A stretch of DNA of 48,918 bases. Origin: a virus. Both the position numbers and the translations under genes were made by a program. Positions 1 to 24,476 of this stretch are shown here, piece after piece; positions within the stretch are counted from its first letter, which is position 1, and each line of letters begins with the position of its first letter. The stretch lies in the IMG/VR virus record IMGVR_UViG_3300032087_000854, positions 1 to 48,918 of that record. One strand, given 5' to 3'. The notes beneath the pieces are model-generated. The model worked only from the letters and a program-made list of their open reading frames with translations, had not been told where the DNA came from and did no database searches.

Positions 1-794
1 TTGGTTTGGGCACAGCTAGGTTTATAACAGGTAATTTAAACCGTATAGACAAACAAAACATACAACTAAAAACACCTACAGCAAACATAGCTATAAGAGG
101 CACAGACTTTACAGCTACAGTAGATGAATTAGGTCGTAGCCTTATAATATTGTTACCAGATGCTTTTGGTTTATCTAGTGGTGAAATAGAAGTTGTTACA
201 GCTACAGGCAGTGTTTTGCTCAACAAACCCTACCAAGCTACAACAGTTGATGTTTTTGAAAACGCTCCAAGCAAACCTGTAATACTAGATCTATCTCTAG
301 ATATTATTGACAATATGTTAATTGTTTCTCCACCTAAAGAAGATAGTCTAGCTCAAGAAGAAACATCAAGCACTAAAACAGTCAATTTATTAGATTTTAA
401 TGATTTAGATATTGACTACTTAAACGAAGATTTTTTAGAAAATGAAGACTTAGAATTTACAGAGCTTGATATAAATTATCTTGACGTTAATTTCTTAGAA
501 GATTTACTAGATGTATTAGACACTTTAGATGTAGAAGAAGAAGAAGATCAGCTTGGATTAGCTACACGTGTCAATATTACAGGTACTCTGATAGGGCAGG
601 ACACTGAAACACAGATAACTACAATAGTTACAGGACAAACCATAAGTTTACGCAGACAAGTAAGTGAATCTGCACAAATAGATCTGAATGCAGGTGACGG
701 TTATACAGTTATTTTAATACAAGATGGTGTTTCTAATATAATAAAAATTAATGGGGGTGGTGATAGCGTTATTACTATCACTCAAAGTGATTAA
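1..794 (+). CDS. FecR-domain protein, 5' end outside window
   Basis: The reading frame is open to the left edge, so the true start and any signal peptide lie upstream; the first in-window start codon is a TTG at 6, which I do not trust. The early residues TPTANIAIRGTDF match the core of the FecR domain, an extracytoplasmic domain known from sigma/anti-sigma signalling. The middle (about residues 125-180 of the visible part) is extremely acidic and holds two copies of a pattern like LDIDYLNEDFLE / LDINYLDVNFLE. The C-terminal part looks beta-rich. The stop codon overlaps the ATG of the adenylate cyclase by one base, implying translational coupling, so the two products probably act together at the membrane. 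The exact role in a phage is unknown. Confidence 0.8.
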   Translation, partial: GLGTARFITGNLNRIDKQNIQLKTPTANIAIRGTDFTATVDELGRSLIILLPDAFGLSSGEIEVVTATGSVLLNKPYQATTVDVFENAPSKPVILDLSLDIIDNMLIVSPPKEDSLAQEETSSTKTVNLLDFNDLDIDYLNEDFLENEDLEFTELDINYLDVNFLEDLLDVLDTLDVEEEEDQLGLATRVNITGTLIGQDTETQITTIVTGQTISLRRQVSESAQIDLNAGDGYTVILIQDGVSNIIKINGGGDSVITITQSD

Positions 795-2545
795 TGAAGC
801 GAATATTATTACCAATACTTATAATACTGTCTTTACCCTTAGTATTCCAAAGCACACCCACAGAGATACTTAAATTAAAAGTATTTGATGCTTTTGTTAC
901 TACACCAGAACCATCAGGTAATTTTGTTATCTTAAATATCACGGAAGAAGACGTACAAGACCAAGGTGGTTGGCCGTTTCCTAGAAGATCACTTGCACAA
1001 ATACAAGTAGATTTGATTAGTGCAGGTGCTATGGGTATTGGTTGGGTGATAGCTTTTCCACAAGCTGATCGTATGGGTGGGGATGAGGTTTTTTCACATA
1101 CTCTAAAATATGCACCTTCAGTCTTAGCAATGTTTGAAAATCCTAATGGAACTTATCCTAAAACTACAGGAACTGTTATCAAGGGTGATGATATTGGCGG
1201 TATGCCTACACCTGGTGTTATACAAAACATAGATGTATTACAAGAAAATGCTAATCAAGGTATTGCTAGTGCACCAGTAGACATAGATAACTTAGTAAGA
1301 AGAATACCATTATTACTAAAAACTCCAGATGGTTATGTTAGTTCTTTTGGTACAGAAGTTTTAAAAACACTTACAGGTACTAGAACTTACATTATTACTA
1401 CCAATGAAGTCGGTATACAAGAAATAGCTGTAAGAGGAATACCACCAGTCAAGACAGATAGCCTTGGACGTAAATGGATCAGTTGGGTTGATACACCACA
1501 AACAACACTAAAGGAAATGAATGTAAATGGTAAATTTGTTTTTGTTGGTGTTACTGCTCCAGGAATCATGCCACAAGTTGCAACACCTGTTGGTTTATTA
1601 GAACCACATAAAATTCAAGCAGCATTATCTGAGTCAATATTGATAGAAAATTCTCCATTTGTGCCAGATTTTGCTTTAGCGTTGGAAATATTAATTTTTG
1701 GAATTTTTGTGTCGTTGACGTGGCTCGTAATCAATTATCTTGGTGTAACTAAGGGCATAAGCCTTGCTGTAGTTTTACTCTTCACTACGGGCTTTACAGG
1801 AGCTTTTAGTATTCAAAAGGGGTATTTGATAGATTTTTCATGGACTTTTGTATCTCAATTCATTACTGGAGCTATCGCTTTCTATCTAAACTTTAGAAAA
1901 CAGTACAAATTACGTCAACAAATTAAAAAACAGTTTGAGCATTATCTTGATCCAAGACAAGTTAAAAAGTTACAAGACAATCCAGAGTCATTAGTTTTAG
2001 GTGGTGAACGTAGATATTGTACTTTCTTGTTTACAGATGTTCGTGGATTTACTGCTATGTCAGAGCAACTAGAACCAGAAGAAGTAACTGTAATCATGAA
2101 CAAAGCTTTAACTATTCAAGCAAACGCAGTTAAAGAATACGGAGGAATGGTAGATAAATACATTGGTGATGCCATGATGGCTATATTCAATGCTCCAATA
2201 GATTTACCAAATCATGAAACATTAGCCGTGCTTTGTGCCAAAGAAATACAAGAAAATATTAAGAAAGCTGATATTGGTGTAGAAATAGGTGTAGGTGTAA
2301 ACACAGGATATGCTGTTGTTGGTAATATGGGTAGTGATACCAGGTTTGATTATACGGCTATTGGTGATGCTGTAAATCTAGCAGCTAGATTAGAAAGCTC
2401 AACTAAAGAAGTTGGCGAAGATTTGGTGATAGGTTATGATACTATAACAGCGAAAACATTTAGTGATCAAATAATACTAAAAGAACTGGATAGTATTTTT
2501 GTGAAAGGTAAAAAGAAAAAGATAAAAATATTTACTATTGCATAA
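794..2545 (+). CDS. Membrane adenylate cyclase: CHASE2 sensor + class III cyclase
   Basis: Predicted to make cAMP from ATP. Order of parts in 583 residues: N-terminal membrane segment (about 4-20), CHASE2 extracytoplasmic sensor (about 25-285), three membrane helices (about 293-317, 321-340, 347-368), a short helical linker, and a class III nucleotide cyclase domain (about 405-583). All key catalytic residues are visible: metal-binding D415 (FTDVRGF) and D459 (YIGDAMM), purine-recognising K455 and T521 (DYTAIGD), and transition-state N528 and R532 (NLAAR). Lys plus Thr is the ATP-specific class IIIb combination. It lies between a FecR gene and the lysis genes with no room for a separate promoter. 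Such enzymes are common in bacteria but unexpected in a phage late operon. Family assignment is firm; activity is inferred. Confidence 0.93.
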   Translation: MKRILLPILIILSLPLVFQSTPTEILKLKVFDAFVTTPEPSGNFVILNITEEDVQDQGGWPFPRRSLAQIQVDLISAGAMGIGWVIAFPQADRMGGDEVFSHTLKYAPSVLAMFENPNGTYPKTTGTVIKGDDIGGMPTPGVIQNIDVLQENANQGIASAPVDIDNLVRRIPLLLKTPDGYVSSFGTEVLKTLTGTRTYIITTNEVGIQEIAVRGIPPVKTDSLGRKWISWVDTPQTTLKEMNVNGKFVFVGVTAPGIMPQVATPVGLLEPHKIQAALSESILIENSPFVPDFALALEILIFGIFVSLTWLVINYLGVTKGISLAVVLLFTTGFTGAFSIQKGYLIDFSWTFVSQFITGAIAFYLNFRKQYKLRQQIKKQFEHYLDPRQVKKLQDNPESLVLGGERRYCTFLFTDVRGFTAMSEQLEPEEVTVIMNKALTIQANAVKEYGGMVDKYIGDAMMAIFNAPIDLPNHETLAVLCAKEIQENIKKADIGVEIGVGVNTGYAVVGNMGSDTRFDYTAIGDAVNLAARLESSTKEVGEDLVIGYDTITAKTFSDQIILKELDSIFVKGKKKKIKIFTIA

Positions 2546-2546
2546 T

Positions 2547-2762
2547 ATGAAACAAGAAATAACAACAAACGATTTAGTAGCAAGACTTACAAAACTAGAA
2601 ACAATTTCACATGAGCGTTGGAAAACCGCATTTAATGAATTTTCTGATATTAAAGAAGAAATAACTCATATAAATTCAACCATCAAAGCTACTACCTTTG
2701 GTGTCTTTGGTTTTCTAGGTGCTTTATTTATAGCAGTAGTAGTTAATATGGTAATGATATGA
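2547..2762 (+). CDS. Small coiled-coil plus one-TM protein, holin-accessory-like
   Basis: 71 residues if started at the ATG one base after the cyclase stop codon; a TTG nine bases earlier is possible but less likely. The N-terminal two thirds is charged and helical (residues about 5-40), followed by one hydrophobic segment near the C-terminus (about 45-68, GVFGFLGALFIAVVV). This architecture matches the XhlA/hemolysin-type holin accessory proteins that sit beside holins. The gene overlaps the next (holin-like) gene by four bases (ATGA). The role in lysis is inferred from architecture and position, not from a diagnostic motif. Confidence 0.65.
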   Translation: MKQEITTNDLVARLTKLETISHERWKTAFNEFSDIKEEITHINSTIKATTFGVFGFLGALFIAVVVNMVMI

Positions 2763-3238
2763 AAGGATTACTAAAGAACATAGTAGGTGCTGTTGCTCCT
2801 ACACTAGGTACAGCAATAGGTGGACCTATGGGAGGCATGGCTGCAAACATGATTGCAGATGTATTAGGTGTGCCTAATGATCAAAAATCAATAGAAAAAG
2901 CTATACAAAACGCTACACCAGAACAAATGCTAGAACTTAAGAAAGCTGAACAACAGTTTGAAGTTCAAATGAAAGAACTTGATGTAGATGTATTTAAGCT
3001 TGAAACAGCAGATAAACAACACGCAAGAGGTATGTTCAGCAAAGACTGGACAGCTAGAATCATAGGCATAGCAACTATAGGTGGCTTCCTTGGTTATATA
3101 TTCTTAGTAACATTACAACCACCAGAGCAAAACTCTGAAGCTTTAATTAATCTTGTTTTAGGCTATCTTGGAGGGTTAGCTAGTGCGATTATTTCGTTCT
3201 ATTTTGGAGCATCTCACTCAAACGACAAAGGAGAGTAA
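2759..3238 (+). CDS. Holin-like membrane protein (GTA 3TM holin type)
   Basis: 159 residues. A glycine-rich hydrophobic N-terminus (about 8-38), a charged helical middle (about 50-95), then two clear membrane segments (about 100-120, ARIIGIATIGGFLGYIFLV, and about 130-150, LINLVLGYLGGLASAIISF). The charged middle followed by KDWTARIIG resembles the three-TM holin family first named from gene transfer agents. It overlaps the preceding one-TM gene by four bases and ends two bases before the lysozyme start, giving a compact lysis cassette. It would open the inner membrane so that the lysozyme reaches the cell wall. Family recall is moderate, context is strong. Confidence 0.72.
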   Translation: MKGLLKNIVGAVAPTLGTAIGGPMGGMAANMIADVLGVPNDQKSIEKAIQNATPEQMLELKKAEQQFEVQMKELDVDVFKLETADKQHARGMFSKDWTARIIGIATIGGFLGYIFLVTLQPPEQNSEALINLVLGYLGGLASAIISFYFGASHSNDKGE

Positions 3239-3239
3239 A

Positions 3240-3683
3240 ATGCAGATTTCTAAGGAAGGTCTTGCACTGATCAAAAAATTTGAAGGGTGTGAGCTAGAAG
3301 CATACAAGTGTGCAGCTGGAGTTTGGACTATAGGATATGGTTCTACTAAAGATGTAAAAGAGGGAGATAGCATAACTCAAGAAGAAGCTGACGATCTTTT
3401 ACTGCATGAAATGAAAGAATACGAAGGTTATATACATGATCTTGTTTCAGTAGATTTAGATCAAAATCAGTTTGATGCATTGGTTTCTTGGGTATTCAAC
3501 TTAGGACCTACGAATTTAAAAGCTTCTACTTTACTAAAAGTCTTAAACGCTAAAGACTATGAGGGTGTGCCAGCACAAATAAAACGGTGGAATAAAGCTG
3601 GTGGCAAGGTTCTACAGGGACTTATAAGAAGAAGAGAAGCAGAATCTTTGCTGTTTGAAGGCAAAGAATGGCATGAGGTATAA
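3240..3683 (+). CDS. Endolysin, GH24 lysozyme
   Basis: 147-residue muramidase that would cut peptidoglycan at the end of infection. The start is the ATG two bases after the holin stop, preceded by AAAGGAGAG; longer upstream frames would run inside the holin gene. The GH24 catalytic triad fits the E-8-C-5-T spacing: E15 (KKFEG), C24 (YKCAAG, where many relatives have Asp) and T30 (WTIGYGST). The remaining conserved parts, VSWVFNLGP and RRREAE, are present and the length is normal for phage lambdoid-type lysozymes. No signal peptide or SAR helix is visible, so export should depend on the holin encoded upstream. Confidence 0.93.
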   Translation: MQISKEGLALIKKFEGCELEAYKCAAGVWTIGYGSTKDVKEGDSITQEEADDLLLHEMKEYEGYIHDLVSVDLDQNQFDALVSWVFNLGPTNLKASTLLKVLNAKDYEGVPAQIKRWNKAGGKVLQGLIRRREAESLLFEGKEWHEV

Positions 3684-3685
3684 CG

Positions 3686-5554
3686 ATGCCATTGCAGAAG
3701 CTTACATTTAGACCGGGCATAAACAGAGAAGGGACAGCTTACGATAACGAAGGCGGTTGGTTTGATTGTAATTTAGTACGTTTTCGTAAAGGTAGACCAG
3801 AAAAGTTTGGGGGGTGGCAAAAACTTACTACTAACACGTATTTAGGAACAGCTAGAGCTTTACATTCATGGATTTCATTAGCTGGAACAAAATATTTAGG
3901 TTTAGGTACAACGTGGAAGTATTACATTGAATCAGGTAATGTATTTAATGACATTACACCTATTAGATCTACCACAGCAGCTGGTGATGTTACGTTCTCT
4001 GCTTCTAATGGTGATGCAACGATTACAGTCGCAGACACAGCTCATGGTGCTGTAAAGAATGATTTTGTAACATTTTCAGGTGCAGCAACATTGGGTGGCA
4101 ATATTACAGCAGCAGTGCTAAATCAAGAATATCAAATAGCAAACATAGTAAATGCAAACAGTTATACCATAGAAGCTAAAGACACTTCTGGTACAACTGT
4201 AACAGCTAACGCATCTGATACAGGAAATGGTGGCTCATCAGTAGTTGGAACTTACCAATTAAATGTAGGTTTGGATGTTTACGTTCCAGGAACAGGTTGG
4301 GGTATAAACGGTTGGGGTTCTGGTGCTTTTGGTAGCACATCAGCTTTAAGTGATACAAACCAATTACGTTTATGGTCGCATGATCATTTTGGTGAGGATT
4401 TAATTATAGGGCAAAGAAATGCTGGTATATATAAATGGACTGAAAACAATGGAGTTGGTACAAGAGCAGTAGAGCTATCAGGTATATCAGGTGCTAACTT
4501 AGTGCCAACTAAAGGTCTACAAGTAATTACCTCAGAAAAAGATAGGCATCTCATAGTGCTTGGATCTGATCCTATATCAGGATCAGCAAGAACAGGAACT
4601 ATTGATCCAATGCTTATTTCATTTAGTGACCAAGAAAATGATTTAGATTTTGAACCATTATCTACTAATACAGCAGGTTCACTCAGACTATCTTCAGGAT
4701 CATCAATCATTGGTGGTGTTAAAGCTAGACAAGAAATATTAGTTTGGACTGATACAGCTTTATACAGTATGCAATTTATAGGTCCACCATTTACTTTTGG
4801 TATAAATTTAATAAACGAAGGCACAGGACTAGTAGGTCCAAAAGCAGCAATAACAACACCTAGCGGTGTTTACTGGATGAGTTATAACAACTTCTACACA
4901 TACAATGGTAGCGTACAAACATTACCTTGTTCTGTTCATAATTACGTTTTTGGCGATATAAACCTAACTCAGTCATTCAAGATTAACGCATTTACTATTA
5001 AAGATAAAAGTGAAGTGGGTTGGTTCTATTGTTCATCAAGCTCTGATGAAATAGATAGATATGTAATTTACAATTATGTAGAAAAAGTATGGTTTTATGG
5101 TCAACTTACAAGAACTGCATGGCTTGACTCTGGTATTGTGAATTACCCAAGAGCTGTAAACGGTGGCTATTTATACCAACAAGAAATAGGTTTTGATGAT
5201 GATGGCTCACCTATGACCAATGTATTTATAGAAAGCTCTGATATGGATATAGGTGATGGTGAACAGTTTAGCTTTATCAAACGAATTATACCTGATTACA
5301 AGTTTATTCAAGACGATAACAACTGTAATGTAAACATAGTTCTTAAAACTAGAAACTTTCCAGGTGACTCTCTTACAACCAATTCAACCAGTGCGATAAG
5401 TGCAAGCACTCAACAAGCTTATGTTCGAAGCAGATCAAGACAGATAGCATTAAGATTTGAATCAGACGATGATGCAACAAATGATGGCAATCTTGGTATT
5501 GGCTGGAGATTGGGAGCAACACGTATAGATATAAAGCCTGATGGTAGAAGATGA
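3686..5554 (+). CDS. Virion protein, P22 gp10-like tail/DNA-stabilisation candidate
   Basis: 622 residues, starting MPLQKLTFRPGINREGT, an N-terminus that recurs in marine podovirus structural proteins. The body is beta-rich with many aromatic and glycine residues (for example TGWGINGWGSGAFG) and no enzymatic motif. It resembles the tail-hub proteins that plug the portal after packaging, of which P22 gp10 is the model. The gp4-like and portal genes elsewhere in the window make this job plausible. It starts two bases after the lysozyme stop and overlaps the next gene by four bases. The functional name is inferred from family resemblance only. Confidence 0.62.
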   Translation: MPLQKLTFRPGINREGTAYDNEGGWFDCNLVRFRKGRPEKFGGWQKLTTNTYLGTARALHSWISLAGTKYLGLGTTWKYYIESGNVFNDITPIRSTTAAGDVTFSASNGDATITVADTAHGAVKNDFVTFSGAATLGGNITAAVLNQEYQIANIVNANSYTIEAKDTSGTTVTANASDTGNGGSSVVGTYQLNVGLDVYVPGTGWGINGWGSGAFGSTSALSDTNQLRLWSHDHFGEDLIIGQRNAGIYKWTENNGVGTRAVELSGISGANLVPTKGLQVITSEKDRHLIVLGSDPISGSARTGTIDPMLISFSDQENDLDFEPLSTNTAGSLRLSSGSSIIGGVKARQEILVWTDTALYSMQFIGPPFTFGINLINEGTGLVGPKAAITTPSGVYWMSYNNFYTYNGSVQTLPCSVHNYVFGDINLTQSFKINAFTIKDKSEVGWFYCSSSSDEIDRYVIYNYVEKVWFYGQLTRTAWLDSGIVNYPRAVNGGYLYQQEIGFDDDGSPMTNVFIESSDMDIGDGEQFSFIKRIIPDYKFIQDDNNCNVNIVLKTRNFPGDSLTTNSTSAISASTQQAYVRSRSRQIALRFESDDDATNDGNLGIGWRLGATRIDIKPDGRR

Positions 5555-5877
5555 GCAAACTATTACAAACTCAACTACCCCTAGCTTCTGAACAAGTCAC
5601 ATCTGATATTTTTAACAGATTAGTAAGAATACTAGAAATCAATCTAGGTGCAGTTGATTTAGATAACGTAAGACAAATCACTGACGCAGAAAAAAACACC
5701 CTAAAATTTAACGATGGTAGTATTATTTGGAATACCACTGTAGGCGTTTTACAGGTATATACAGGTAATCAATGGTTAGATATTGGCGATAGAACACTAC
5801 CACAAGGCTTTGAAATGACTTCTAGTGTTGGTAAAGTTACTATAAACATAGCAGGTAGCACTTCGATTAACGTATGA
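5551..5877 (+). CDS. Small virion-associated protein, function unknown
   Basis: 108 residues, ATGA overlap with the genes on both sides, so it is translated together with the putative tail hub and the oxygenase. The N-terminal half is helical (about 10-40). The C-terminal half contains a short beta pattern (NDGSIIWNTTVGVLQVYTGN) typical of domains in tail-fibre and tail-tip proteins that display strands around a trimer. It has no membrane segment and no catalytic motif. A minor tail component is the best guess from context. Confidence 0.6.
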   Translation: MSKLLQTQLPLASEQVTSDIFNRLVRILEINLGAVDLDNVRQITDAEKNTLKFNDGSIIWNTTVGVLQVYTGNQWLDIGDRTLPQGFEMTSSVGKVTINIAGSTSINV

Positions 5878-6581
5878 GTAACACAGCAGAGGATTTAGGA
5901 TATAAAACTAAAAACATACTTTTAGAACATCCTGCTGACTGGTACATACACAAAGATACGTTTGATGCTGTATCACAATCAATAGAACCTATAATGGAGT
6001 TCTACAAACAAAAGGGTGACACAGAGCGAAAAGACACTCAATTAGATCAGATAATACAAGAACCTCTCAAAGATGTTTACACAGTGCCTTTCTTCTCAGA
6101 AAAGTTTTGTGAGATATTGCTTGATGAAATGAAGAATTTAGAGGCACATTTTGGTTTTAAACCTAACGATGAAGAGGATACTTTGCGACAAATACCCGAA
6201 ATAACTTTTCAAGATAATTGCCCAGAAATCTTCCATTCCTTGTTCCATACGATATATACTATAGGTAATCCTATATTTTTGAATATTTGGAATCGACACG
6301 TAAACGGTGGTGGAATACAAATAGCCAACTATAATTTAAAGGATAAAAAACAAGGTGCTTGGCATCATGATGCAAGTGCTGATATAAGTATGGTAGTTCC
6401 TTTGAACACTGGAAAGTACAAAGGTGGCGGAACTGAGTTTTTGAAACGTGGTACAGTCGAGCCTCTGCCTACAGGCCACGCTCTAATTTTTCCGAGTTTT
6501 ACTCATATGCACAGGGGACTTGCAGTAGAATCAGGAGATAGATACTTACTGGTATTTTGGTTAAAATGTATTGAGGAATGA
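5874..6581 (+). CDS. 2OG-Fe(II) oxygenase, procollagen-lysyl-hydroxylase-like
   Basis: 235 residues. The C-terminal half is a double-stranded beta-helix dioxygenase. Iron ligands are visible as H164-x-D166 (WHHDAS) and H213 (THMHRGL), and the 2-oxoglutarate-binding arginine as R223 (GDRYLLVFW). WHHDAS, a GGGTEFL segment and THxHxGL occur in the same order in the catalytic domain of animal procollagen-lysine hydroxylases, so lysine hydroxylation is a reasonable prediction. The N-terminal part (1-90) is not recognised. The gene overlaps its neighbours by four and a few bases within the virion operon, so the substrate may be a structural protein. Related oxygenases occur in cyanophages and giant viruses; the target here is unknown. 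Confidence 0.85.
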   Translation: MSNTAEDLGYKTKNILLEHPADWYIHKDTFDAVSQSIEPIMEFYKQKGDTERKDTQLDQIIQEPLKDVYTVPFFSEKFCEILLDEMKNLEAHFGFKPNDEEDTLRQIPEITFQDNCPEIFHSLFHTIYTIGNPIFLNIWNRHVNGGGIQIANYNLKDKKQGAWHHDASADISMVVPLNTGKYKGGGTEFLKRGTVEPLPTGHALIFPSFTHMHRGLAVESGDRYLLVFWLKCIEE

Positions 6582-15800: not shown

Positions 15801-16283
15801 GGGGGTCTAGTTGCTGCTGGTTTGGGTGCAGCTATTGTTTTTGCACCATTACAAACACTACCTACATTAGTAGGTTTATCAATAGTTCGTTCTGTTTTAA
15901 GTAATAAAATGATGGTTGGACTGCTAAGTAAAACCGATCCTGGAAGTATTGCACAACTTATACAAGCAGTTGAAAGAGCTGCAAGACAAATGGGTGTAAG
16001 AATGGTTGATGGCACTTACGTTGAAGGTGCTGTAGATATGCTTGGCAAAGGCGTAGATACAGCTAAAACAGCAGTGGGTATAACCGATGATGATATATCT
16101 GGCGTTGCTGATCAAGGACTATCGTCATTTCAAGAATTAAGAGATAGTGTTTTAGCACCTTTAAAAACACAACCAACGCTACCACAGATAGCACCAGTGC
16201 AAACACCTCAAGCACCGACAGATCCTTTATCTCCTGAGAGATTAGATTTTGCAGAGCAAGTAGCCGGTAGACCTGTACTTTAA
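12873..16283 (+). CDS. Very large internal virion protein (1136 aa)
   Basis: The ATG lies 14 bases inside the previous gene. N-terminal residues 1-35 (RYEVSIAEGVSEIVDAENQ) look like a small domain found at the start of other phage structural proteins. There is a hydrophobic segment at about 160-205 (GVAGPIIGMLAAFTPPVIKGL) and another at about 1000-1035 (GGLVAAGLGAAIVFAPLQTLP), with long charged helices between. Helix-rich architecture, membrane-like segments and size are reminiscent of T7 and P22 ejection proteins that make a channel through the cell envelope. No lytic transglycosylase motif was found. Its stop codon interlocks with the stop of the convergent primase-helicase gene. This is the last gene of the late arm. 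Confidence 0.58.
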   Translation: MPRYEVSIAEGVSEIVDAENQDEARKKVKALLAQGAMSPFYDELFFDYETGVDNKKLRRTLALAETTEEQNAAILKVLRETQDTELPLEQENVLVNEVGEQGFTRNTKGQIALTPYGMQQLGLEKLIKTRTLSDGTKINLNTVIDEKDFNLKTGDLSDLAGVAGPIIGMLAAFTPPVIKGLIAVTKRPVFSRLLAAGVGSVAGKAVEEEVIETQQGFQLQDRDDLNKLYTQEFILGSAGQGLGEGVYKIYQTFLGARAPLADKRIMFQQHKNRSVSDVMKLDAQLGKPASERQIKKAIRDGKVKQFDWKMNKTTGARPSQTSLERMLPGRSQSIAEQLIGNNRDKANASYLFAELNYIMRGIKNEKAALDSYISASQKGRLDESIKQKLVDLKNAETNVTARLEKLLGEVTEDALQVGNYGNVPSRREFGESIKQTVSTARAFVTREMGKDYKKIDNMMKDMRSIYKMELDDFGELQLVGRARPGSNQADQFVPKGGQEQAIANTINATINDTANAYFERSLMRIKSFKDDFPGYDLSIQDPNVKGGTINQIEAKYKQLFNQTTKEATEQGQGISLFQLRNLVKDLDLYIKESPLPTPQRELLYDLKRYIDAYGMDNPQSIMTDLTKESLASINTRLKRQGITLGAKQRNEIKKSIDLLRDTNLKNAQRMQPFDNLSIQKVISNAKIGAHPPDEIYQRVFLGGSAKDLQDLFKATRNYDEYLSSIGKEANTEERLKGQLKKKFFDDALFKATDGETQSVNYTTFAREFFNFDKDLMNNGKIDVLFTNKSGNTSGRLVRETIRNLNRVQPRLKPNDLRLLVNDFTGTNRGLDANAQGKAFIKGLTDLADESEKLMKFRANRAISDLPEKGIEATVDTIFRPGNASVINTLKNTVDDDVFQSMQQASMMKLLQRSVDFNGKGKINDIFKPGNLETALNSYGDETLDAMFGKEITRGLRAFQREVDVLTKGEIGRGGSAGGLVAAGLGAAIVFAPLQTLPTLVGLSIVRSVLSNKMMVGLLSKTDPGSIAQLIQAVERAARQMGVRMVDGTYVEGAVDMLGKGVDTAKTAVGITDDDISGVADQGLSSFQELRDSVLAPLKTQPTLPQIAPVQTPQAPTDPLSPERLDFAEQVAGRPVL

Positions 16284-18400
16284 TCAGCAAAGAAGTTTGG
16301 ATCTACAGCTACAAAGCGTTTAGCAGGTCGTCCTTTACCACCTATCTTTATCTCAACCTCTTGTATCTCTCCCGCATTCTTAAGCCTTTCAATGATTTCT
16401 TTTACTTCATAGGACTTCATGCTACGGAATAGTTCGTGTCTATCTACTTCACGTTTAGATATACCCTCTCCATTTCTGGATCTAATGAAAGATAATACTT
16501 GCTTGATTTTAGATTCAGTTGCACTACTAGCTACCTTATCTCTACAAGCTTCTATGAATAACAGGTCATAATATCTAATAAAATCTACAGCCCACCTTGT
16601 AACGTCTCCTGTAATCGTCTTAGCGTCAGCATTAGAGGCAAGAGTACATAACAACGACAAACGCATAGCTTTCTCCTTAGAACGGCTTAGAAGAGGCTCC
16701 AGGTTATCTTTTTCTAGTATATCTTGTCGTTTTATTATTTCTCTTGCGAAATCTTGCAAGATCTCTTCAGATTCTCTATCAAACTCTAATACAATCTGAT
16801 CTAGGTCAAGTTCAGCATTATCTCTTGATAAATCACTCATGCTACCTCTTTGTCTTCTGATGTAGTTTACCCAGTTGACAATGGACGTTGGTGGCGATTT
16901 GAATCGTTTGAGTTCACCCACTCTCCTTGGCTCTGTTGATTCAACGACTACAAATCGGTTTAGGAACCCGTCTGCAATCCTGCCACCATTTAACGCACCA
17001 TAAAAGTTTTTAGGAACTGATAGACCAACCAATGTGATAGCTGGTTTATGAGTAACACGGCTCATCATCATTTCCTTGTATTGTTCTTGTACATTCATAA
17101 GCGAGTAGTTGTCTGGTCTTAATGTGCCATGACAACGACCCCAGGCTTCCATAAGCGTTTGTATACCATCTTCTTTATTGGTATTACCTGAATTGCTTAT
17201 AGCCTCTAATCTTTTACCAAATTCGTCCATAATGGTTATCTGTGTAGGACGCATCTTTAATACCGAGTGAACAGCACCACTTGAGGTATAACCATCACCT
17301 ACAACAAGCTTTTCATGATCTGATGCGTTTAATACTGACTCTACAAATGTTTTTATATTCTCTTTACCTTGACCTGACTTAGCGATACCCATGAAATACA
17401 TAGAAGAAAAGTTATTCATATTGGTTCTATAAATACGTCCACAAGTAACACTAGCTAGTGCTAATGCACCTACAAGTGATAGTTCTGGCTGTGGTACTTG
17501 TGCTATCTCTTCACAAAACTTAAACATATCTTTAAGCAGGCCTGGAGGGTTAAATAGATCTTTTGGTTTTTGTATGGTTTCTGTAACTTGGGTAAATAAT
17601 GGTGCTAACTGATTCTTTCTATCGTGTGTATTTTTGACGCTCTCTACTACGCCATCTATCTCTGCTTGTGGTAAGGGTGGGTTATTGTTGGTATTCCAGT
17701 TCTGCAAGAAGATTCTTACGAACTCTAAGTTGACATTCTTTGATATAAGATAGCCTGCAATACGTGCAGCCTGGTCGTTCCTAGAGCCCTCTAATACACC
17801 ATCTAATGAAAATGGTGCAGTTTGAACGCCAGTATCAGTCTTTGGTACACCTGTTATCTTTTGAAACTCAACTTCAGTAAAATCTGGTAAATCGTTATGA
17901 TCATAGATCTTCCAATCTGCAAAGGTAACTGGCTTGTATACTTGTCCGTTAGCGTGTCTGTTCCATGGTGCTATGATTAGACCACCTACACCTCTAATGT
18001 CTATTAAGCGTTCTATAGGTGTTTCAGCAGTCCTTCTTGTGGCAAAGGTAGTATAGTTTTCTGGGTTGTTGTAATAGTAATGCATACCCTTACCAGTAAT
18101 AACTTTAAAAGGACATGGAGGCATATTCTTTTCTACCCAATCCATAGCCTCTGGTGAATCAGCATCAACGACCACAAACTTACCGCAAACAAGTGCTACC
18201 TGTAGATTATCTCTATCTTTAAACCAGGACTCTACAAGATCCCTAGACGGTCTAGTTTCTTTGTATTGCTCCCAGCTACCTAGAAATGATGGTGGTTTCT
18301 TGTTGGATCTTTGCAGAGGGACAACATTATAGCCTTCATCATAGTAGGCAAGTGCTTGCTCCAAGGATGTGTCGTCCTCGGTTATATTAAGCTGAAACAC
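16280..18400 (-). CDS. Bifunctional primase-polymerase/helicase-like replication protein
   Basis: 706 residues. The N-terminus is a Prim-Pol domain: KPPSFLGSWEQY at 35-46, metal-binding D79-x-D81 (VVVDAD), H107 (GKGMH) and D134 (IDIRGVGG). GSRNDQAARIAGYLI (205-219) resembles a primase C-terminal domain. A P-loop ATPase of the DUF3987/helicase type follows, with Walker A GIAKSGQGKEN (K346) and Walker B ITIMDEFGK (D392, E393). The protein would lay primers and unwind the fork, and could act as a translesion-type polymerase; no separate DNA polymerase is visible in the window. It follows the HTH gene by one base in a leftward operon and ends against the late genes. Confidence 0.85.
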   Translation of the reverse strand: MFQLNITEDDTSLEQALAYYDEGYNVVPLQRSNKKPPSFLGSWEQYKETRPSRDLVESWFKDRDNLQVALVCGKFVVVDADSPEAMDWVEKNMPPCPFKVITGKGMHYYYNNPENYTTFATRRTAETPIERLIDIRGVGGLIIAPWNRHANGQVYKPVTFADWKIYDHNDLPDFTEVEFQKITGVPKTDTGVQTAPFSLDGVLEGSRNDQAARIAGYLISKNVNLEFVRIFLQNWNTNNNPPLPQAEIDGVVESVKNTHDRKNQLAPLFTQVTETIQKPKDLFNPPGLLKDMFKFCEEIAQVPQPELSLVGALALASVTCGRIYRTNMNNFSSMYFMGIAKSGQGKENIKTFVESVLNASDHEKLVVGDGYTSSGAVHSVLKMRPTQITIMDEFGKRLEAISNSGNTNKEDGIQTLMEAWGRCHGTLRPDNYSLMNVQEQYKEMMMSRVTHKPAITLVGLSVPKNFYGALNGGRIADGFLNRFVVVESTEPRRVGELKRFKSPPTSIVNWVNYIRRQRGSMSDLSRDNAELDLDQIVLEFDRESEEILQDFAREIIKRQDILEKDNLEPLLSRSKEKAMRLSLLCTLASNADAKTITGDVTRWAVDFIRYYDLLFIEACRDKVASSATESKIKQVLSFIRSRNGEGISKREVDRHELFRSMKSYEVKEIIERLKNAGEIQEVEIKIGGKGRPAKRFVAVDPNFFAD

Positions 18401-18401
18401 T

Positions 18402-18749
18402 TTAAGCTTCTGTTTCTAGTATTTCAGATATAGGTCCATAAATAGACTCATAATCTAATCTACCATCAGTTGCTCTTATAATTTGCTTTGCTTGGTTAAT
18501 TGTAGGTTGTCGATAGCCATACCTCCAAGACTTGCATGAAGCCTCCGAACAGCCAAATTGCTTTGCAGCTTCTTTCTGTCCTAAGAACTCAATGTAGTCT
18601 CTAAGGGTGTACTTCTTAACCTTTCTATCAGTGTGATTAGGTTTTATTCCCATGGTTTCAAATTCCTTTAGTTTTCTTGTTGCTAATGTTTTTGTTCTAA
18701 AATAATAATTGGCTTGCCAGGTGTGGTTTTGTTTATCAGTTTGTTCCAT
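18402..18749 (-). CDS. HTH DNA-binding protein, Cro-like regulator candidate
   Basis: 115 residues from the ATG preceded by AAAGGAGAAGTA, a strong ribosome site that decides the start over a TTG 18 bases earlier. The C-terminal half (TLRDYIEFLGQKEAAKQFG, then CSEASCKSWRYGYRQP) is a helix-turn-helix of the Cro/YdaS type in which the second helix follows a small-residue turn. The N-terminal 45 residues are polar and basic. It is the first gene of the leftward primase operon and faces the divergent Sak4-like gene across 97 bases carrying two palindromes, the usual arrangement for an autoregulated phage repressor. Target and polarity of regulation are inferred. Confidence 0.7.
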   Translation of the reverse strand: MEQTDKQNHTWQANYYFRTKTLATRKLKEFETMGIKPNHTDRKVKKYTLRDYIEFLGQKEAAKQFGCSEASCKSWRYGYRQPTINQAKQIIRATDGRLDYESIYGPISEILETEA

Positions 18750-18783
18750 TACTTCTCCTTTCGACAAATTGTTAAAAATAAAT

Positions 18784-18813
18784 TTTACATATAGTAACTA
18801 TTATGGTTATAAT
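18784..18813 (+). promoter_or_regulatory. Sigma70-type promoter for the recombination genes
   Basis: TTTACA at 18784-18789, an 18-base spacer, and a perfect TATAAT at 18808-18813, 33 bases upstream of the Sak4-like start with AAAGGAG between. The match to the bacterial consensus is high (5/6 and 6/6). A weaker leftward promoter for the HTH gene may lie on the other strand in the same gap. Confidence 0.72.
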
Positions 18814-18814
18814 A
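18791..18814. promoter_or_regulatory. Candidate operator: two adjacent palindromes over the promoter
   Basis: ATAGTAACTAT (18791-18801) is a perfect inverted repeat around one base, and TATTATGGTTATAATA (18799-18814) is a perfect 6-bp inverted repeat around GGTT. They share three bases and cover the spacer and the whole -10 box of the rightward promoter. The neighbouring HTH protein is the obvious candidate ligand, but binding is inferred. Confidence 0.5.
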
Positions 18815-18846
18815 TGCAAGTTAATTTTAATTAAAGGAGATTGAGA

Positions 18847-19569
18847 ATGGAATTATCAAATAGAATTGTGTCTCCGCAGAAGCTTGTGCAAAACCAAGGT
18901 GCTAAAATTTTGGTGTATGGAATGGCTGGTGCGGGTAAGACAACACTGGCTAAAACAGCTCCAGGTAAAGTTCTTGTTATAAGTGCTGAAGCTGGATTGT
19001 TATCTATTAAAGATGCAAGCAATGTTGAAGCTATAGAAGTAAAAGAAGCTAGTGAAGTCATGGAACTTCATAATGCTCTTAAGTCTGGTACATTACAATA
19101 CGATACAGTTGTCTTGGATTCAGTATCCGAGATCAGTGAGATCTTATTAGTATGGGAGAAGTCTCGTAGTAAAGATCCACGTATGGCATATGGTAATGTT
19201 CAGGAGTCGGTAACAAATTTAATGCGAGCATTTAGAGATCTAAATATGCACGTATTATTTCTTTGCAAAGAAGATGTGGTCAATGATGACGGTGTTCTTA
19301 GACACGCACCTAAAATGGTCGGGACTAAGTTAGGCGAATCAATTACATATTTCTTTGATGAAGTTCTTGCATTACGCATCATTGAAGATCAAGATGAAGA
19401 CGGTAAGAATGTGCAAACAAGATGGCTGCAAACAGCATACGGACAAGGCTATAAAGCTAAAGACCGTAGTGGTAAACTTGATAATTTCGAGAAGCCTAAC
19501 ATAAGTGCCTTGATTGAGAAGTTAGGGTTTTCATTAACAACAGATAATATAGGAGAAGCTAATGTCTGA
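18847..19569 (+). CDS. Sak4-like RecA-fold ATPase (AAA_24), recombination protein
   Basis: 240 residues from the ATG, with GGAG seven bases upstream; a TTG six bases earlier is less likely. Walker A is GMAGAGKTT (25-33, K31) and Walker B is YDTVVLDS with D91. The fold and length match the phage nucleotide-binding proteins of the AAA_24/Sak4 group, single-strand annealing ATPases related to a RecA core without extra domains. It overlaps the SSB-like gene by eight bases and, with the RecE-like nuclease of the opposite operon, forms a recombination module. A strong promoter and palindromes precede it. Family confident; role in replication by annealing inferred. Confidence 0.85.
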   Translation: MELSNRIVSPQKLVQNQGAKILVYGMAGAGKTTLAKTAPGKVLVISAEAGLLSIKDASNVEAIEVKEASEVMELHNALKSGTLQYDTVVLDSVSEISEILLVWEKSRSKDPRMAYGNVQESVTNLMRAFRDLNMHVLFLCKEDVVNDDGVLRHAPKMVGTKLGESITYFFDEVLALRIIEDQDEDGKNVQTRWLQTAYGQGYKAKDRSGKLDNFEKPNISALIEKLGFSLTTDNIGEANV

Positions 19570-20026
19570 TTTCGGTGATGTAGAATTTTTTGATAACCTG
19601 GAGGAACTGTCATCTAGTGGTGGCACTCCTCTGGCTCCAGACGGAGAACATAATGCTAAGATTATTGCTACTGATAAGTATAAATCTAAAGCAGGCAACC
19701 ACACGTTGAAAGTAACCTTTCAGCTTGATGGTGGAAAGTATAAAGACCATAACGAATGGTATAACCTATGGGCTACTAACGAAGACAACAAAAGAATAAG
19801 CACGGAGATATTCACTAGGCTTACGAAAGCTGTTGGCTTTAAGAAGTATCCAGAGAGTCATAGTGACTTTGTTGGTAAGAAACTCATACTCAAGACTGAA
19901 CAGATTGAAGATCAGTTTGAGGGTGATAATGGTGTGGTCAATACTAAGAAGACTAAGATCAGATTATATTTGCCAGAAGCAGATGCTGACATGAGTCCAC
20001 CAAGAGAAGCTGTCCCACCTTTCTAA
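19562..20026 (+). CDS. DUF669-type single-stranded DNA-binding protein candidate
   Basis: 154 residues. The core (about 27-130) has the DUF669 pattern: an N-terminal PDGEHNAKI strand, HTLKVTFQLDGG, NEWYNLWATNED and FVGKKLILKTEQIE, an OB-like beta arrangement. The tail is acidic and ends EAVPPF, like the hydrophobic tip with which bacterial SSB proteins contact partners. The gene is coupled to the Sak4-like ATPase by an eight-base overlap, and such pairs are common in phages. It ends eight bases before a strong terminator. SSB activity is inferred from tail, context and family. Confidence 0.72.
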   Translation: MSDFGDVEFFDNLEELSSSGGTPLAPDGEHNAKIIATDKYKSKAGNHTLKVTFQLDGGKYKDHNEWYNLWATNEDNKRISTEIFTRLTKAVGFKKYPESHSDFVGKKLILKTEQIEDQFEGDNGVVNTKKTKIRLYLPEADADMSPPREAVPPF

Positions 20027-20033
20027 ACGTGGG

Positions 20034-20065
20034 TAAAAAAAGAGGGGCATTTAGCCCCTTTTTTT
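20034..20065. terminator. Bidirectional intrinsic terminator
   Basis: GGGGC-ATTTA-GCCCC (20044-20058) is flanked by an A run on the left and seven Ts on the right, so it can stop rightward transcripts from the SSB-like gene and leftward transcripts of the RecE operon. Confidence 0.88.
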
Positions 20066-20138
20066 ATGGTTCTTGTTTTGTGAAAGCGTAAACTATGAGG
20101 AGACATAGTGTAAGCCCAACTAGGAAATTAAGATCCAT
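20064..20138 (-). CDS. 24-residue single-TM micro-protein
   Basis: ATG overlaps the stop codon of the DUF3310 gene (TAATG) and has GGAGGAG upstream, so translation is plausible. The product, MDLNFLVGLTLCLLIVYAF plus a five-residue polar tail, is essentially one membrane helix with a charged C-terminal tail. Its stop codon lies in the T tract of the bidirectional terminator. Size and shape resemble the two homologous micro-proteins at 26143 and 29381, though sequence similarity is weak. Function unknown. Confidence 0.5.
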   Translation of the reverse strand: MDLNFLVGLTLCLLIVYAFTKQEP

Positions 20139-20359
20139 TACATCTCCTCCAGTTCTTTGATGAGTCGGTTTAAATACCAAACTGCTTTTTGAAGATCCTC
20201 TATGTTTTTACCTTTGTGATCTTCTCTCCAAATGTATTTTATAGCCGCAGCTTTTAAATACCCTTTGAACTCTTCCCTGGTCAATGCAGACTTAATTGCT
20301 TCAATACACTCAACCGATCCTTTCCTGTAATGTGGAGGCCTGTTCACGTTATCTGTCAT
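20138..20359 (-). CDS. DUF3310 family protein
   Basis: 73 residues with the family hallmarks in order: RPPHYRKGSVECIEAI (7-22), FKGYLKAAAIKYIWR (31-45), KGKNIEDLQKAVWYLNRLI (49-67). DUF3310 proteins are widespread small phage proteins with no settled function. It overlaps the 52-residue gene upstream by 11 bases and the micro-protein downstream by one, within a leftward operon of small genes behind the RecE-like nuclease. Confidence 0.85.
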   Translation of the reverse strand: MTDNVNRPPHYRKGSVECIEAIKSALTREEFKGYLKAAAIKYIWREDHKGKNIEDLQKAVWYLNRLIKELEEM

Positions 20360-20507
20360 TCTTCTTATCCTCCATAATATTGTTATGCATATTTAACCAA
20401 TCTATATCTACTTCGTCTTTACGGCTATCAAAGTAATACATAATAGAAGCGTAGGTGTGTCGCCAGGCTCTATCTATTATGTTATGTACTTTTCTCCAAA
20501 ATCTCAT
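20349..20507 (-). CDS. Small basic protein (52 aa), unknown
   Basis: The start codon overlaps the upstream stop by four bases (ATGA) and the stop lies inside the DUF3310 start region, the same tight packing as all other genes here. Product begins MRFWRKVHNIIDRAWRHTY, basic and aromatic at the N-terminus, acidic at the C-terminus. No family recognised. Coupling is the main evidence that it is real. Confidence 0.55.
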   Translation of the reverse strand: MRFWRKVHNIIDRAWRHTYASIMYYFDSRKDEVDIDWLNMHNNIMEDKKNDR

Positions 20508-20686
20508 AGTATTTCTCCATGATGTAAAGCTATAAGCTGTTTAACAATTTCACCAGTAGTAACCCTTCTTTTAGCTTCTTTGCTGTAGAAATTACGTATC
20601 GCAGTAAGTTTTTTGCTGGTAATTGGATCTACTTTGAAACTAATTAATTGTGTGTTTCTACCACCATCAAATTTTAATTTAGCCAT
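20504..20686 (-). CDS. Small ribbon-helix-helix-like protein
   Basis: 60 residues. A short strand (TQLISFKVDP, 12-21) is followed by two predicted helices (TSKKLTAIRNFYSKEAKRR and TTGEIVKQLIALHH), the order found in Arc/MetJ-type DNA-binding proteins. It starts one base after the RecE-like stop codon region and overlaps the next gene by four bases. A regulatory role is inferred. Confidence 0.58.
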   Translation of the reverse strand: MAKLKFDGGRNTQLISFKVDPITSKKLTAIRNFYSKEAKRRVTTGEIVKQLIALHHGEIL

Positions 20687-20687
20687 T

Positions 20688-21572
20688 TTATTCCTCTCTA
20701 TAAAAATTACCAGTATCTAGATCAACAATGTTAGGACTATTGTAAATCGTTGCTGGTTTACCGTTTAATACTCTGTTGTATTCTTCTAAGTGATCACTCA
20801 AGAAGTTCCAACCTATTTCCATGTCTCCATGATTCATTTTAAATACTTTGTTAGCAAAAGGTGTTTTCTTTTCTTGTGCTACAAATACAAAGTCATGCAC
20901 CTGGAAACCTGCTTGTTCAAAGCCACGTTTATACCATGCTGCTTGTAAATCATAAGAATATCGTCTAACAGAATTAGTAAAACCTCTGACAGAACAATCG
21001 CTAGTAGTCTTATAATCTACAAGCACGATGGAGTTTTCTCCCTGTGGCATATCAAAAGGATTTAATACAACGTCTGCTCTGGTTTTACAAAGCAAACCTT
21101 GTTCATACCAATACAATGATACTTCGTAGGGTGAATCTAAAACCTGGGGATAGTCTTTATCTGGATTTAGATAAGCACTTGCCTCCTGTACTAAGCTACC
21201 TTTCATGCTATATATGGTATCTCTGTCTTTTTCAGTAATAACAGTAAGCCCTTTATCAAGACTTTCTTGCTTCAAAGCTTTATTACTATTGGTATACGGA
21301 GATCCTGTAATAGTAACAACATCAGTAAAGAAAGCACCTTCACCCTCTACAATAAGAGAATGAGCAGCAGATCCAAAGTTCATAGCAGGTGTCGGCTCTA
21401 TAACTTCTTCAAAAGCATGAAGCTGACTCTGACTGAATCTTCGTATGTTAGACGAGGATATTCCTGGACCGTTATGATAAGCCTGGTTATCTAGGTGGGG
21501 AAAGTAGAAAGCATTTCCAATCTTTTTATGTGGAAAGTCCTCCAGCATATCTGGTAGTTTTACATCACTCAT
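20688..21572 (-). CDS. RecE-like PD-(D/E)XK exonuclease (DUF3799 type)
   Basis: 294 residues. The N-terminal YHNGPGISSSNIRRF (32-46) and G67SAAH71 match exonuclease VIII/DUF3799 proteins. Catalytic positions follow in order: E150 (YEVSLYW), D167 (TRADVVLN), D186-Y-K188 (VDYKTT) and Y207DLQ210, which is the metal-binding nuclease core. It would chew one DNA strand to give single-stranded tails for the Sak4-like annealing ATPase and SSB-like protein encoded next door. The start overlaps the upstream stop by four bases. Identification strong. Confidence 0.85.
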   Translation of the reverse strand: MSDVKLPDMLEDFPHKKIGNAFYFPHLDNQAYHNGPGISSSNIRRFSQSQLHAFEEVIEPTPAMNFGSAAHSLIVEGEGAFFTDVVTITGSPYTNSNKALKQESLDKGLTVITEKDRDTIYSMKGSLVQEASAYLNPDKDYPQVLDSPYEVSLYWYEQGLLCKTRADVVLNPFDMPQGENSIVLVDYKTTSDCSVRGFTNSVRRYSYDLQAAWYKRGFEQAGFQVHDFVFVAQEKKTPFANKVFKMNHGDMEIGWNFLSDHLEEYNRVLNGKPATIYNSPNIVDLDTGNFYREE

Positions 21573-22237: not shown

Positions 22238-23728
22238 ATGATGAACGTATTAAGTCTATTTGATGGTATGTCTTGTGGTCGTATTGCATTAGATCAACTT
22301 GGCATACCTGTAGACAAATACTATGCAAGTGAGATAGATAAGTATGCTATCCAGGTGGCACAAGCAAACTATCCTGATACCATTCATGTTGGCGATATAT
22401 GTAATTTAGATCCAGAAGATTATAAAGATATAGATTTAATACTTGCCGGTTCACCATGCCAGGGTTTTAGTTTTGCTGGTAAACAGCTTGCCTTTGATGA
22501 TCCAAGATCTGCATTGTTCTTTGAGTTTATACGATTACTCAAAGCAATTAAGCCAAAGTATTTTCTATTAGAGAATGTAAGAATGAAAAAAGAGTTCTTG
22601 CAAGTTATATCTGAACAAGTATCAGAGTGTTATCCAGAGATACCGTTTGGTATTGAGCCAATATTTATCAATAGTTCTCTTGTATCTGCACAATCTAGGC
22701 AAAGATATTACTGGACTAACATTCCAGGAATACAACAACCAGAAGATAAAGGCATAGTTTTGAGGGATATTCTTGAAGATAATTACGATAGCGAGAGAGA
22801 TAAAAGCTATTGTATTGATGCTAATTACTCTAAAACAGGTGCAAAACCCCACCATTACAAGGATAAATACCGTAGGCAGTTAGTAAACAAACCTATCAAA
22901 GTAGGTATGAATGTAGAAGAAGTAAAGGTAAGAAAGCATGAAGTCAACATATCTGGGCTACAACACTTACTTAGAGAAATGAAGAAAGAGTCTGGTAAAA
23001 CAAACAAACAAATAGCAAATGAAACTAATATGCCAGTCACTAAAGTAGAGCATTGGTTTAGAACTGACAGCAGTTTTGCCATACCTGGTGATGATATATG
23101 GCATAAACTCAAAGAAGTATTAGGCATTAAAACAGATGTATTTGATAGAGAAATCATGGAGTTTATCTATCGTAACGGTGTATATGAAACAAAACAAAGG
23201 GTTTATAGCGATCAAGGTAAATCACCAACACTTACTGCATCTAATAAGGATCAGATGATAGAGACATCTCCTGTTCAAGTTGGTGTAGCTGTTGATGTAA
23301 ACGGACATGACATACTAAAACGCGTCTATAGTCCTGACGGTAAATCACCGACAGTAAACACTTGCCAAGGTGGTAATCGTGAGCCTAAAGTTGTTACCGG
23401 TGGTGCTTTTAGAGGTAGAGCCTACGACAACGAGGGTAAAAGAAAAGATAGAGATGGTAGTTCAGTTGCAAATCAAACAACTCAGATGCTTGAACTACGT
23501 AAAGATAACAAGTCAAACGCTATAACTACGGTGTCTAAGGATAGTATTGTGGTAGAAAACGAACTACATTGGCGTAAACTAACGCCTTTAGAGTGCGAAA
23601 GACTGCAAACAGTCCCAGATAACTACACGGATCACGTATCAAACACACAAAGATATAAGATGTTGGGTAATGGTTGGACTGTAGAGGTTATCAAACACAT
23701 ATTTAAAAACATGGATTATGAAAAATAA
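22238..23728 (+). CDS. C5 cytosine DNA methyltransferase with internal HTH
   Basis: 496 residues. Motif I is LSLFDGMSCGRIAL (5-18), motif IV GSPCQGFS with nucleophile C74, motif VI ENV (112-114), motif VIII QSRQR (152-156), motif IX/X LTPLECERLQTVP and LGNGW (476-480). Between VIII and IX sits an unusual insert: a helix-turn-helix-like block (about 237-298, TNKQIANETNMPVTKVEHWF) and two copies of a YSxxGKSPT element (323-331, 364-372) that probably form the target-recognition part. It would methylate cytosine, likely to protect phage DNA or regulate genes. It overlaps the PP-loop gene by 11 bases. Sequence specificity is unknown. Confidence 0.92.
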   Translation: MMNVLSLFDGMSCGRIALDQLGIPVDKYYASEIDKYAIQVAQANYPDTIHVGDICNLDPEDYKDIDLILAGSPCQGFSFAGKQLAFDDPRSALFFEFIRLLKAIKPKYFLLENVRMKKEFLQVISEQVSECYPEIPFGIEPIFINSSLVSAQSRQRYYWTNIPGIQQPEDKGIVLRDILEDNYDSERDKSYCIDANYSKTGAKPHHYKDKYRRQLVNKPIKVGMNVEEVKVRKHEVNISGLQHLLREMKKESGKTNKQIANETNMPVTKVEHWFRTDSSFAIPGDDIWHKLKEVLGIKTDVFDREIMEFIYRNGVYETKQRVYSDQGKSPTLTASNKDQMIETSPVQVGVAVDVNGHDILKRVYSPDGKSPTVNTCQGGNREPKVVTGGAFRGRAYDNEGKRKDRDGSSVANQTTQMLELRKDNKSNAITTVSKDSIVVENELHWRKLTPLECERLQTVPDNYTDHVSNTQRYKMLGNGWTVEVIKHIFKNMDYEK

Positions 23729-24476
23729 AGACATTACAGTATGGTTTAGTTGTGGAGCTGCAAGTGCTGTTGCATCAAAAAAAACTATAGAAAAATATGG
23801 TGCAGATAATAATATACGTGTGGTTAATAATCCGATAAAAGAAGAACACAAAGACAATAAAAGGTTTTTAAAAGATATAGAAAAATGGTTGGGTGTTGAA
23901 ATCGAATATGCAATAAATCCTAAGTTCCCTGATCATTCATGCGAAACAGTATGGCGAGAAAGATCTTATATGGCAGGTAATTTCGGTGCACCGTGTACAA
24001 CACATTTAAAAAAACACGCAAGACAAATATGGGAGATAAACAATCCCACAGATTACATAGTTTTAGGTTTTACTGCTGATGAGCAAAAAAGAGCAACCAG
24101 GTTTAAAGAAAACCAAAAAGATAACTTGTTGCCTGTGTTGATTGATGAGGGCATAACCAAACAAGGGTGTTTTGATATTTTATTACAAGCTGGGATAAAA
24201 CTGCCAGAAATATACTCTTTTGGCTATCCAAACGCTAATTGTATTGGTTGTGTAAAAGCAAGTTCACCTACTTATTGGAACTTAGTTAGAAAAACATTTC
24301 CTGATGTTTTTGAACAACGTATGAAGTTATCAGATGAATTAGGTGCTAACTTGGTTAGATATAAAGGCAAAAGAATACCATTGAGAGAACTACCAGAAGA
24401 TGCAAAGGGTAGAGACTTAAAATCTTATAACTTTGAGTGTGGTATTTTTTGCATTAAAGATGAAGAAAGTTACTAA
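23718..24476 (+). CDS. PAPS-reductase-like PP-loop ATPase
   Basis: 252 residues. The PP-loop that binds ATP pyrophosphate is S11CGAASA17. CTTHLKKH (93-100) matches the CTxxLK element seen in PAPS-reductase-fold enzymes including DndC, and VLGFTADEQKR follows. Two cysteine pairs, C175-x2-C178 and C241-x3-C245, could hold zinc or an iron-sulfur cluster. Members activate a substrate by adenylation, often for sulfur transfer or base modification. Overlap with the cytosine methyltransferase suggests a DNA-modification role, but sulfur metabolism or nucleotide activation remain possible. Confidence 0.78.
   Translation: MKNKDITVWFSCGAASAVASKKTIEKYGADNNIRVVNNPIKEEHKDNKRFLKDIEKWLGVEIEYAINPKFPDHSCETVWRERSYMAGNFGAPCTTHLKKHARQIWEINNPTDYIVLGFTADEQKRATRFKENQKDNLLPVLIDEGITKQGCFDILLQAGIKLPEIYSFGYPNANCIGCVKASSPTYWNLVRKTFPDVFEQRMKLSDELGANLVRYKGKRIPLRELPEDAKGRDLKSYNFECGIFCIKDEESY

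Follow-up and report, generated by a model that had tools for sequence, protein, structure and literature searches.

A CHASE2-type adenylate cyclase in a phage genome and its link to the phage curli module

The cyclase gene and its neighbors

The stretch of DNA analyzed here (the window, 48,918 nucleotides) is an IMG/VR virus record, IMGVR_UViG_3300032087_000854, classed as linear, and its first base already falls within a FecR reading frame. The following features lie at its left end.

3..794, plus strand: FecR-domain protein, of which the 3' part (263 aa) falls inside the window and the 5' end beyond it; phrog_37870, 5.3e-52
794..2545, plus strand: CHASE2/membrane helices/class IIIb adenylate cyclase (AC); 583 aa, ATG start
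827..1708, plus strand: CHASE2 sensor domain of the AC, residues 12-305; PF05226, E=2.8e-27; expected to be periplasmic
1673..1936, plus strand: three helices of the AC, residues 294-316, 318-341 and 348-381, from DSSP of a low-confidence AlphaFold2 model
2018..2539, plus strand: class III cyclase catalytic domain of the AC (PF00211), with D415, K455, D459, T521, N528 and R532
2547..2762, plus strand: small one-helix membrane protein, 71 aa (ATG) or 74 aa (TTG at 2538), conserved after the AC in close relatives
2759..3238, plus strand: holin-like membrane protein of 159 aa, outside the curli module; PHROG 1544, function unknown
3240..3683, plus strand: phage lysozyme (endolysin), outside the curli module; PF00959, E=1.1e-50; phrog_7, endolysin
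3686..5554, plus strand: virion stabilization-like structural protein; phrog_3287, 1.1e-67; 41% identity to the "stabilization protein" of phage DSL-LC04

The AC reading frame (794-2545) is free of internal stops, and the first base of its start codon is at the same time the last base of the FecR frame. The architecture is that of a CHASE2 receptor cyclase, with CHASE2 followed by three helices predicted from the low-confidence model and then by the cyclase domain; by that model, the helices between the two domains are a putative 3TM block along with the start of the signaling helix. The match to Guanylate_cyc (PF00211) covers residues 409-582 (E=2e-17), and the residue set of class IIIb is complete: two metal Asp, the Lys and Thr/Ser purine pair, and the transition-state Asn and Arg. 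The spacings among these residues (+40 from D to K, +44 from D to D, +7 from T to N, +4 from N to R) are presumably the same as in CyaC. A Foldseek search with the model (mean pLDDT 51) placed the cyclase domain with the class IIIb enzymes CyaB (3r5g) and CyaC (1wc0/1wc1), at 6e-14, in agreement with a profile search, in which CyaB was nearest (7.4e-45). CyaB (3r5g) and CyaC (1wc0) share the catalytic fold and residues with the AC, but their sensory domains differ. The AC is thus predicted, from its sequence, to be an ATP-type class IIIb adenylate cyclase, making cAMP. The original prediction of a CHASE2-3TM-class III cyclase of the ATP type holds in this respect, with all six of the residues that it named in place, and the comparison with CyaC-type cyclases that it proposed led, even with a low-confidence model, to CyaB and CyaC.

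As to the genes downstream, family searches with the 71-74 aa protein returned no match, and the 159 aa protein is graded as holin-like only, because Pfam gave no holin match for it. The stabilization-like protein (3686..5554) is a marker of the virion block, located after the lysis genes. Two genes past it, at 5874-6581, a 2OG-Fe(II) oxygenase gene is present.

Conservation was assessed with 241 phage relatives of the AC, representing three phage lineages. Residues D415, K455, D459, N528 and R532 are conserved in practically every one of these, and position 521 is either Thr or Ser, the latter in about half of the window-type relatives and in nearly all of the others. The Thr-to-Ser exchange at the adenine site of class IIIb enzymes is a conservative one. 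The dN/dS values, of about 0.03-0.17 for the pairs with measurable dS, point to strong purifying selection on the AC coding sequence, and, as they are alike in the sensor and the catalytic domain, to selection on both halves of the protein, favoring a regulated, working enzyme. Two deviations are worth recording. The AC of Melnitz, a Methylophilales phage (L083, 5917-7968), carries Asp in place of T521 and Ser in place of N528, and this cyclase may be altered or inactive, while the other phage ACs are intact. In one contig (L087:4843-6666), the gene is broken, by a frameshift or an assembly error, into ORFs of 251 and 338 aa.

The curli module and the FecR partner

When viral contigs were searched for the AC, at least 588 confirmed relatives were obtained, of which 80 were kept and annotated with the proteins of HTVC008M, Melnitz and the window. 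Wherever one of these contigs reaches far enough, the same order is found, on one strand: csgF, csgG, a curlin-repeat protein, FecR and AC. If only the loci with enough upstream room are counted among the 80, curlin is present upstream of the AC in 42 of 42, CsgG in 36 of 36 and CsgF in 33 of 33, and the tie of csgF/csgG/curlin to the AC is repeated over 241 loci in the three phage lineages. Pfam recognizes CsgG (3.7e-46) and CsgF (3.9e-18) in a relative 92% identical (L003); its Curlin_rpt model scores only 0.23 for the phage curlin tested, too weak for detection.

The window itself shows the AC and part of FecR. The nearest contig (L002), 95.5% identical in nucleotide sequence over 4530 b, carries a complete FecR and the C-terminus of a curlin upstream. 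At its right end, the window matches sequence that immediately precedes csgF in two other contigs (L069 and L093), and therefore the missing piece falls where the module should be. A further record (G006), whose left end is also within FecR, has at its far right end csgF, csgG and curlin, together with the first part of FecR. Judged by gene order, the AC of the window is the last gene of the published phage curli module, the head of which is missing from the assembly. The original prediction regarded the AC as an unexpected lone gene, the module being missed because the contig begins inside FecR; it is instead the last gene of a csgF-csgG-curlin-FecR-AC cassette that is carried by many marine phages. 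A chimera at this locus, a concern raised along with that prediction, is ruled out, since the order of FecR, AC, the 74 aa and 159 aa proteins, lysozyme and stabilization protein is common to many independent contigs.

The gene just before csgF encodes a small membrane/coiled-coil protein of 98-116 aa (L003:6611-6961, L063:6384-6985), and the L003 protein gave no histidine kinase match, though the literature places a histidine kinase before csgF in phages. A bacterial chromosomal home for the AC subfamily was also considered. The five matches from genome collections, found in MAGs (L085-L089), are read as phage contigs, because L085, L086 and L088 possess phage-like genes and L087 and L089 possess curli-FecR-AC. 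Two matches labeled as Acinetobacter "phage" (H7 and H8) look like bacterial DNA, H7 lying among mfd, hscA and iscU.

Modules of this kind (T8SS), with FecR and an adenylate cyclase, have been described from HTVC023P-type and myovirus pelagiphages by Wittmers et al. (2022, PMC9599517), who also considered what roles they may have. Lysis, in connection with the curli pores of phages, has been taken up by Buchholz et al. (2022, PMC9004378). The genomes of the HTVC023P type, which are also podovirus-type and possess a structural block homologous to that of the window, have the order csgF, csgG, csgA/B, FecR, (second curlin), AC, according to the sections of that study considered here (PMC9599517), in which the placement of the AC before a lysis cassette is not stressed. 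Unlike in these, there is no second curlin in the window, where FecR and AC overlap. Another example is presented by HTVC008M, a Pelagibacter myophage, and Melnitz, in which the module (csgF-csgG-curlin-FecR-curlin-AC) likewise ends in an AC, to which the window AC is 35 and 32% identical, respectively; HTVC008M differs in having baseplate/tail genes downstream. Overall, the AC gene is real and intact, and it belongs to an already published phage module. Phage curli and the accompanying cyclase are widespread in the ocean.

FecR is a constant neighbor of the cyclase, located upstream in all 76 phage loci with room, and no more than 8 bases away in 71 of them. In L002, the complete FecR has 370 aa, with an N-terminus that by eye is signal-peptide-like. 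Of 12 complete relatives, all are recognized by PF04773 (best 2.6e-10), with no other domain matched convincingly; the structure prediction reached a pLDDT of only 33. Classical FecR anti-sigma regulators combine a cytoplasmic anti-sigma domain with a membrane helix, and are partnered by an ECF sigma factor and a TonB receptor. The phage FecR does not appear to be of this type, as no sigma or TonB receptor gene was seen adjoining it. The last 30 or so residues of FecR (in L002, L003 and others) read by eye like a curlin repeat, Q-D-G-x-S-N ... S-x-I-T-I-x-Q, and a Q-x-G-x-x-N motif is present in 51 of 63 sequences, with ITxxQ at the end. Compared with the curlin repeat, this C-terminus gives a profile score of 17.4 versus 15.6 for the best column shuffle, a small margin, and alignment-score medians of 3.4 and 2.6, barely over shuffles. 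In one contig, binned as Marinimicrobia (L086:1694-2857), a 387 aa ORF reading like a C5 DNA methyltransferase is located between FecR and AC.

A similar partnership is apparent in Bacteria. Among alphaproteobacterial proteins, the closest are CHASE2 cyclases, for the most part about 750 residues long, and a FecR-domain gene adjoins the nearest of these in five of eight enlarged loci, often encoding a very large protein; in the loci that show the cyclase frame, the two genes are divergent. The pairing of the FecR and AC genes that was noted originally is supported both by the phage loci and by these bacterial neighborhoods. Three contigs (L133:4224-8318, L136:2589-6854, L137:2483-5517) place cyclase relatives beside very large FecR-domain proteins or secretion-like genes; in L137, genes reading by eye as type I secretion-like (HlyD/HlyB) stand in place of FecR. 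Such arrangements suggest a wider link of CHASE2 cyclases with surface-protein export. No csg genes were found in the nearest bacterial neighborhoods with profiles built from the phage proteins.

A known case is the CHASE2 receptor cyclase CyaD1 of Sinorhizobium meliloti, whose gene lies, by locus tag, near clr and the FecR-domain gene SMc02177, and which produces cAMP constitutively if CHASE2 is removed, according to the portions of the study considered here (PMC5498481), and these do not mention curli genes. The CyaD1 system differs in that it possesses a CRP-family receptor of its own, Clr, as well as an input from the outer membrane, the CHASE2 cyclases of S. meliloti responding via the barrel protein NsrA (PMC13001267). 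A biofilm operon of Burkholderia pairs a CHASE2 histidine kinase with a FecR-domain protein (PMC5192318). By analogy with these two cases, FecR and CHASE2 look like a pair of general use in sensing the envelope, whose outputs can be exchanged, and which phages would have joined to a curli exporter.

Lysis genes downstream of the cyclase

The location of the AC immediately before a holin and a lysozyme was central to the original prediction. The lysozyme is indeed there (PF00959), while the 159 aa neighbor can be called holin-like only. If the loci with at least 2 kb downstream are considered, an endolysin or holin-like gene follows the AC in 55 of 57 loci of the window's lineage (lineage A), represented by a PF00959 lysozyme in 45, by an M15 peptidase, accompanied by a GTA_holin_3TM holin, in 7, and by a holin-like gene only in 3. 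With the same limited probe set, no lysis gene was found after the AC in the 140 loci of lineages B and C. With these probes, the proposed search for FecR-CHASE2 pairs beside lysis genes succeeds in lineage A and fails in the other two, and the constant linkage expected of a phage lysis regulator is not observed. The AC as a general lysis partner is rejected on this count, as its tie to lysis genes is bound to one lineage and its tie to csgF, csgG and curlin is seen in three. In one contig (L063), a PF00959 lysozyme is placed upstream of csgF instead.

One alternative to be weighed here is that the AC tunes lysis, with late cAMP, or the membrane protein itself, setting the timing of holin and lysozyme action. 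The near-constant presence of lysis genes in close relatives, whichever the endolysin type, speaks for it, as do the overlaps of a few bases between the genes, suggesting coupled translation, and the lysis role proposed for phage curli pores (PMC9004378). Against it stand the two other lineages with AC and curli, as well as HTVC008M, in which the genes after the AC are annotated as tail and baseplate. Further counterevidence comes from the curli-less phage DSL-LC04, in which no match to the AC was found: tail and lectin genes are followed by a holin, an M15 endolysin and the stabilization protein, the lysis genes occupying the same place, so that no functional link is needed to account for the site. 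We consider a role in lysis unlikely. Most simply, the curli module fills a cargo site between tail-fiber genes and the lysis cassette, and the position of the AC most likely reflects this cassette site in the window's phage lineage and not a lysis function, a caution against reading the role of the AC from its lysis neighbors.

A predicted sensor of curli export and the fate of cAMP

The reading that we favor, with a probability of roughly 0.6, is that the AC is the inner-membrane output of the phage curli module, FecR and the CHASE2-AC together acting as a trans-envelope sensor of curli export. CsgG and CsgF would form an outer-membrane pore, exporting curlin-repeat fibers out of the infected cell, and FecR in the periplasm, probably touching CHASE2, would join with that domain, also periplasmic, in sensing the condition of curli export or of the cell surface, the pore or the fiber being the likely stimulus. 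The signal would then cross the membrane helices to reach a dimeric class IIIb cyclase, which would make cAMP in the cytoplasm. Gene order, domain content, catalytic residues, selection and constant partnership all support such a sensor. Speaking against it are the position of the csg genes themselves, outside the window, and the scarcity of CRP-type cAMP receptors. Phage curli regions without AC or FecR are also reported (PMC9599517), and therefore the AC is not essential to the module.

As to the host, the structural block common to the window virus, the HTVC023P-type phages and DSL-LC04 (terminase 56-61%, capsid protein 66-69%) makes a SAR11-like host plausible. A cNMP-binding domain is found in 5 of 118 SAR11-family genomes, in most cases within very long reading frames, and none is recognizable in the other 113, some of the genomes being incomplete, which limits the count; nor was one found in the ten phage records searched (nine and the window). 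A class III cyclase is encoded in just 3 of the 118 genomes, and two of these instances are phage-type contigs (L085/L090 and L132). It follows that cAMP would be without a known reader in the likely host. The combination of constant curli pairing, a selected active site and few CRP-type receptors turns the label of a "regulatory AMG" into a testable question, of the stimulus and of the cAMP reader.

One version of events that takes this scarcity at face value, and that we regard as quite unlikely, is that the module provides a mostly receptor-less host lineage with a complete new trans-envelope path, made up of the outer-membrane pore, FecR and the CHASE2 cyclase, with cAMP acting via an unrecognized receptor, or else exiting via the CsgG pore and signaling between infected cells. 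A flooding of the host with cAMP, redirecting carbon metabolism through CRP, as was originally suggested, would be served by the intact ATP-type active site, but it finds no support if the host is SAR11-like, given the receptor counts above, and even with the host not proven, the regulated architecture (CHASE2, FecR) makes simple flooding very improbable. Least is to be said for the two remaining alternatives. The AC might be a formerly bacterial gene that travels with the curli cassette and itself does little. This would fit its location at the cassette end, its absence from some phage curli regions (PMC9599517) and the changes at two catalytic positions in Melnitz, but such a passenger is largely excluded by the strong purifying selection and the near-complete conservation of the catalytic residues in three lineages. 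Pycsar systems pair a PycC cyclase with a cyclic-nucleotide-gated effector. A Pycsar-like role of the AC in defense or counter-defense is the least credible of all: PADLOC PycC models do match the cyclase domain (best 2.1e-27), and superinfection exclusion is one published guess for the curli module, but we take the match to reflect the similarity of class III cyclases in general, no PADLOC family is matched by FecR or by the 159 aa neighbor, and both CHASE2 and the constant curli linkage are foreign to Pycsar.

In the searched stretches of 023Pt_psg01, HTVC023P and DSL-LC04, no match was found to the replication proteins of the window. The replication block differs in this from the shared structural block, and encodes (16280-21572) a primase/helicase-like ORF, a Sak4-like annealing protein and an exonuclease VIII-like PDDEXK protein. 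Further along, at 22238-23728, lies a gene for a C5 cytosine methyltransferase (PF00145), whose 496 aa against the 324 positions of the model indicate a long insertion, followed at 23718-24476 by a PAPS-reductase-like gene.
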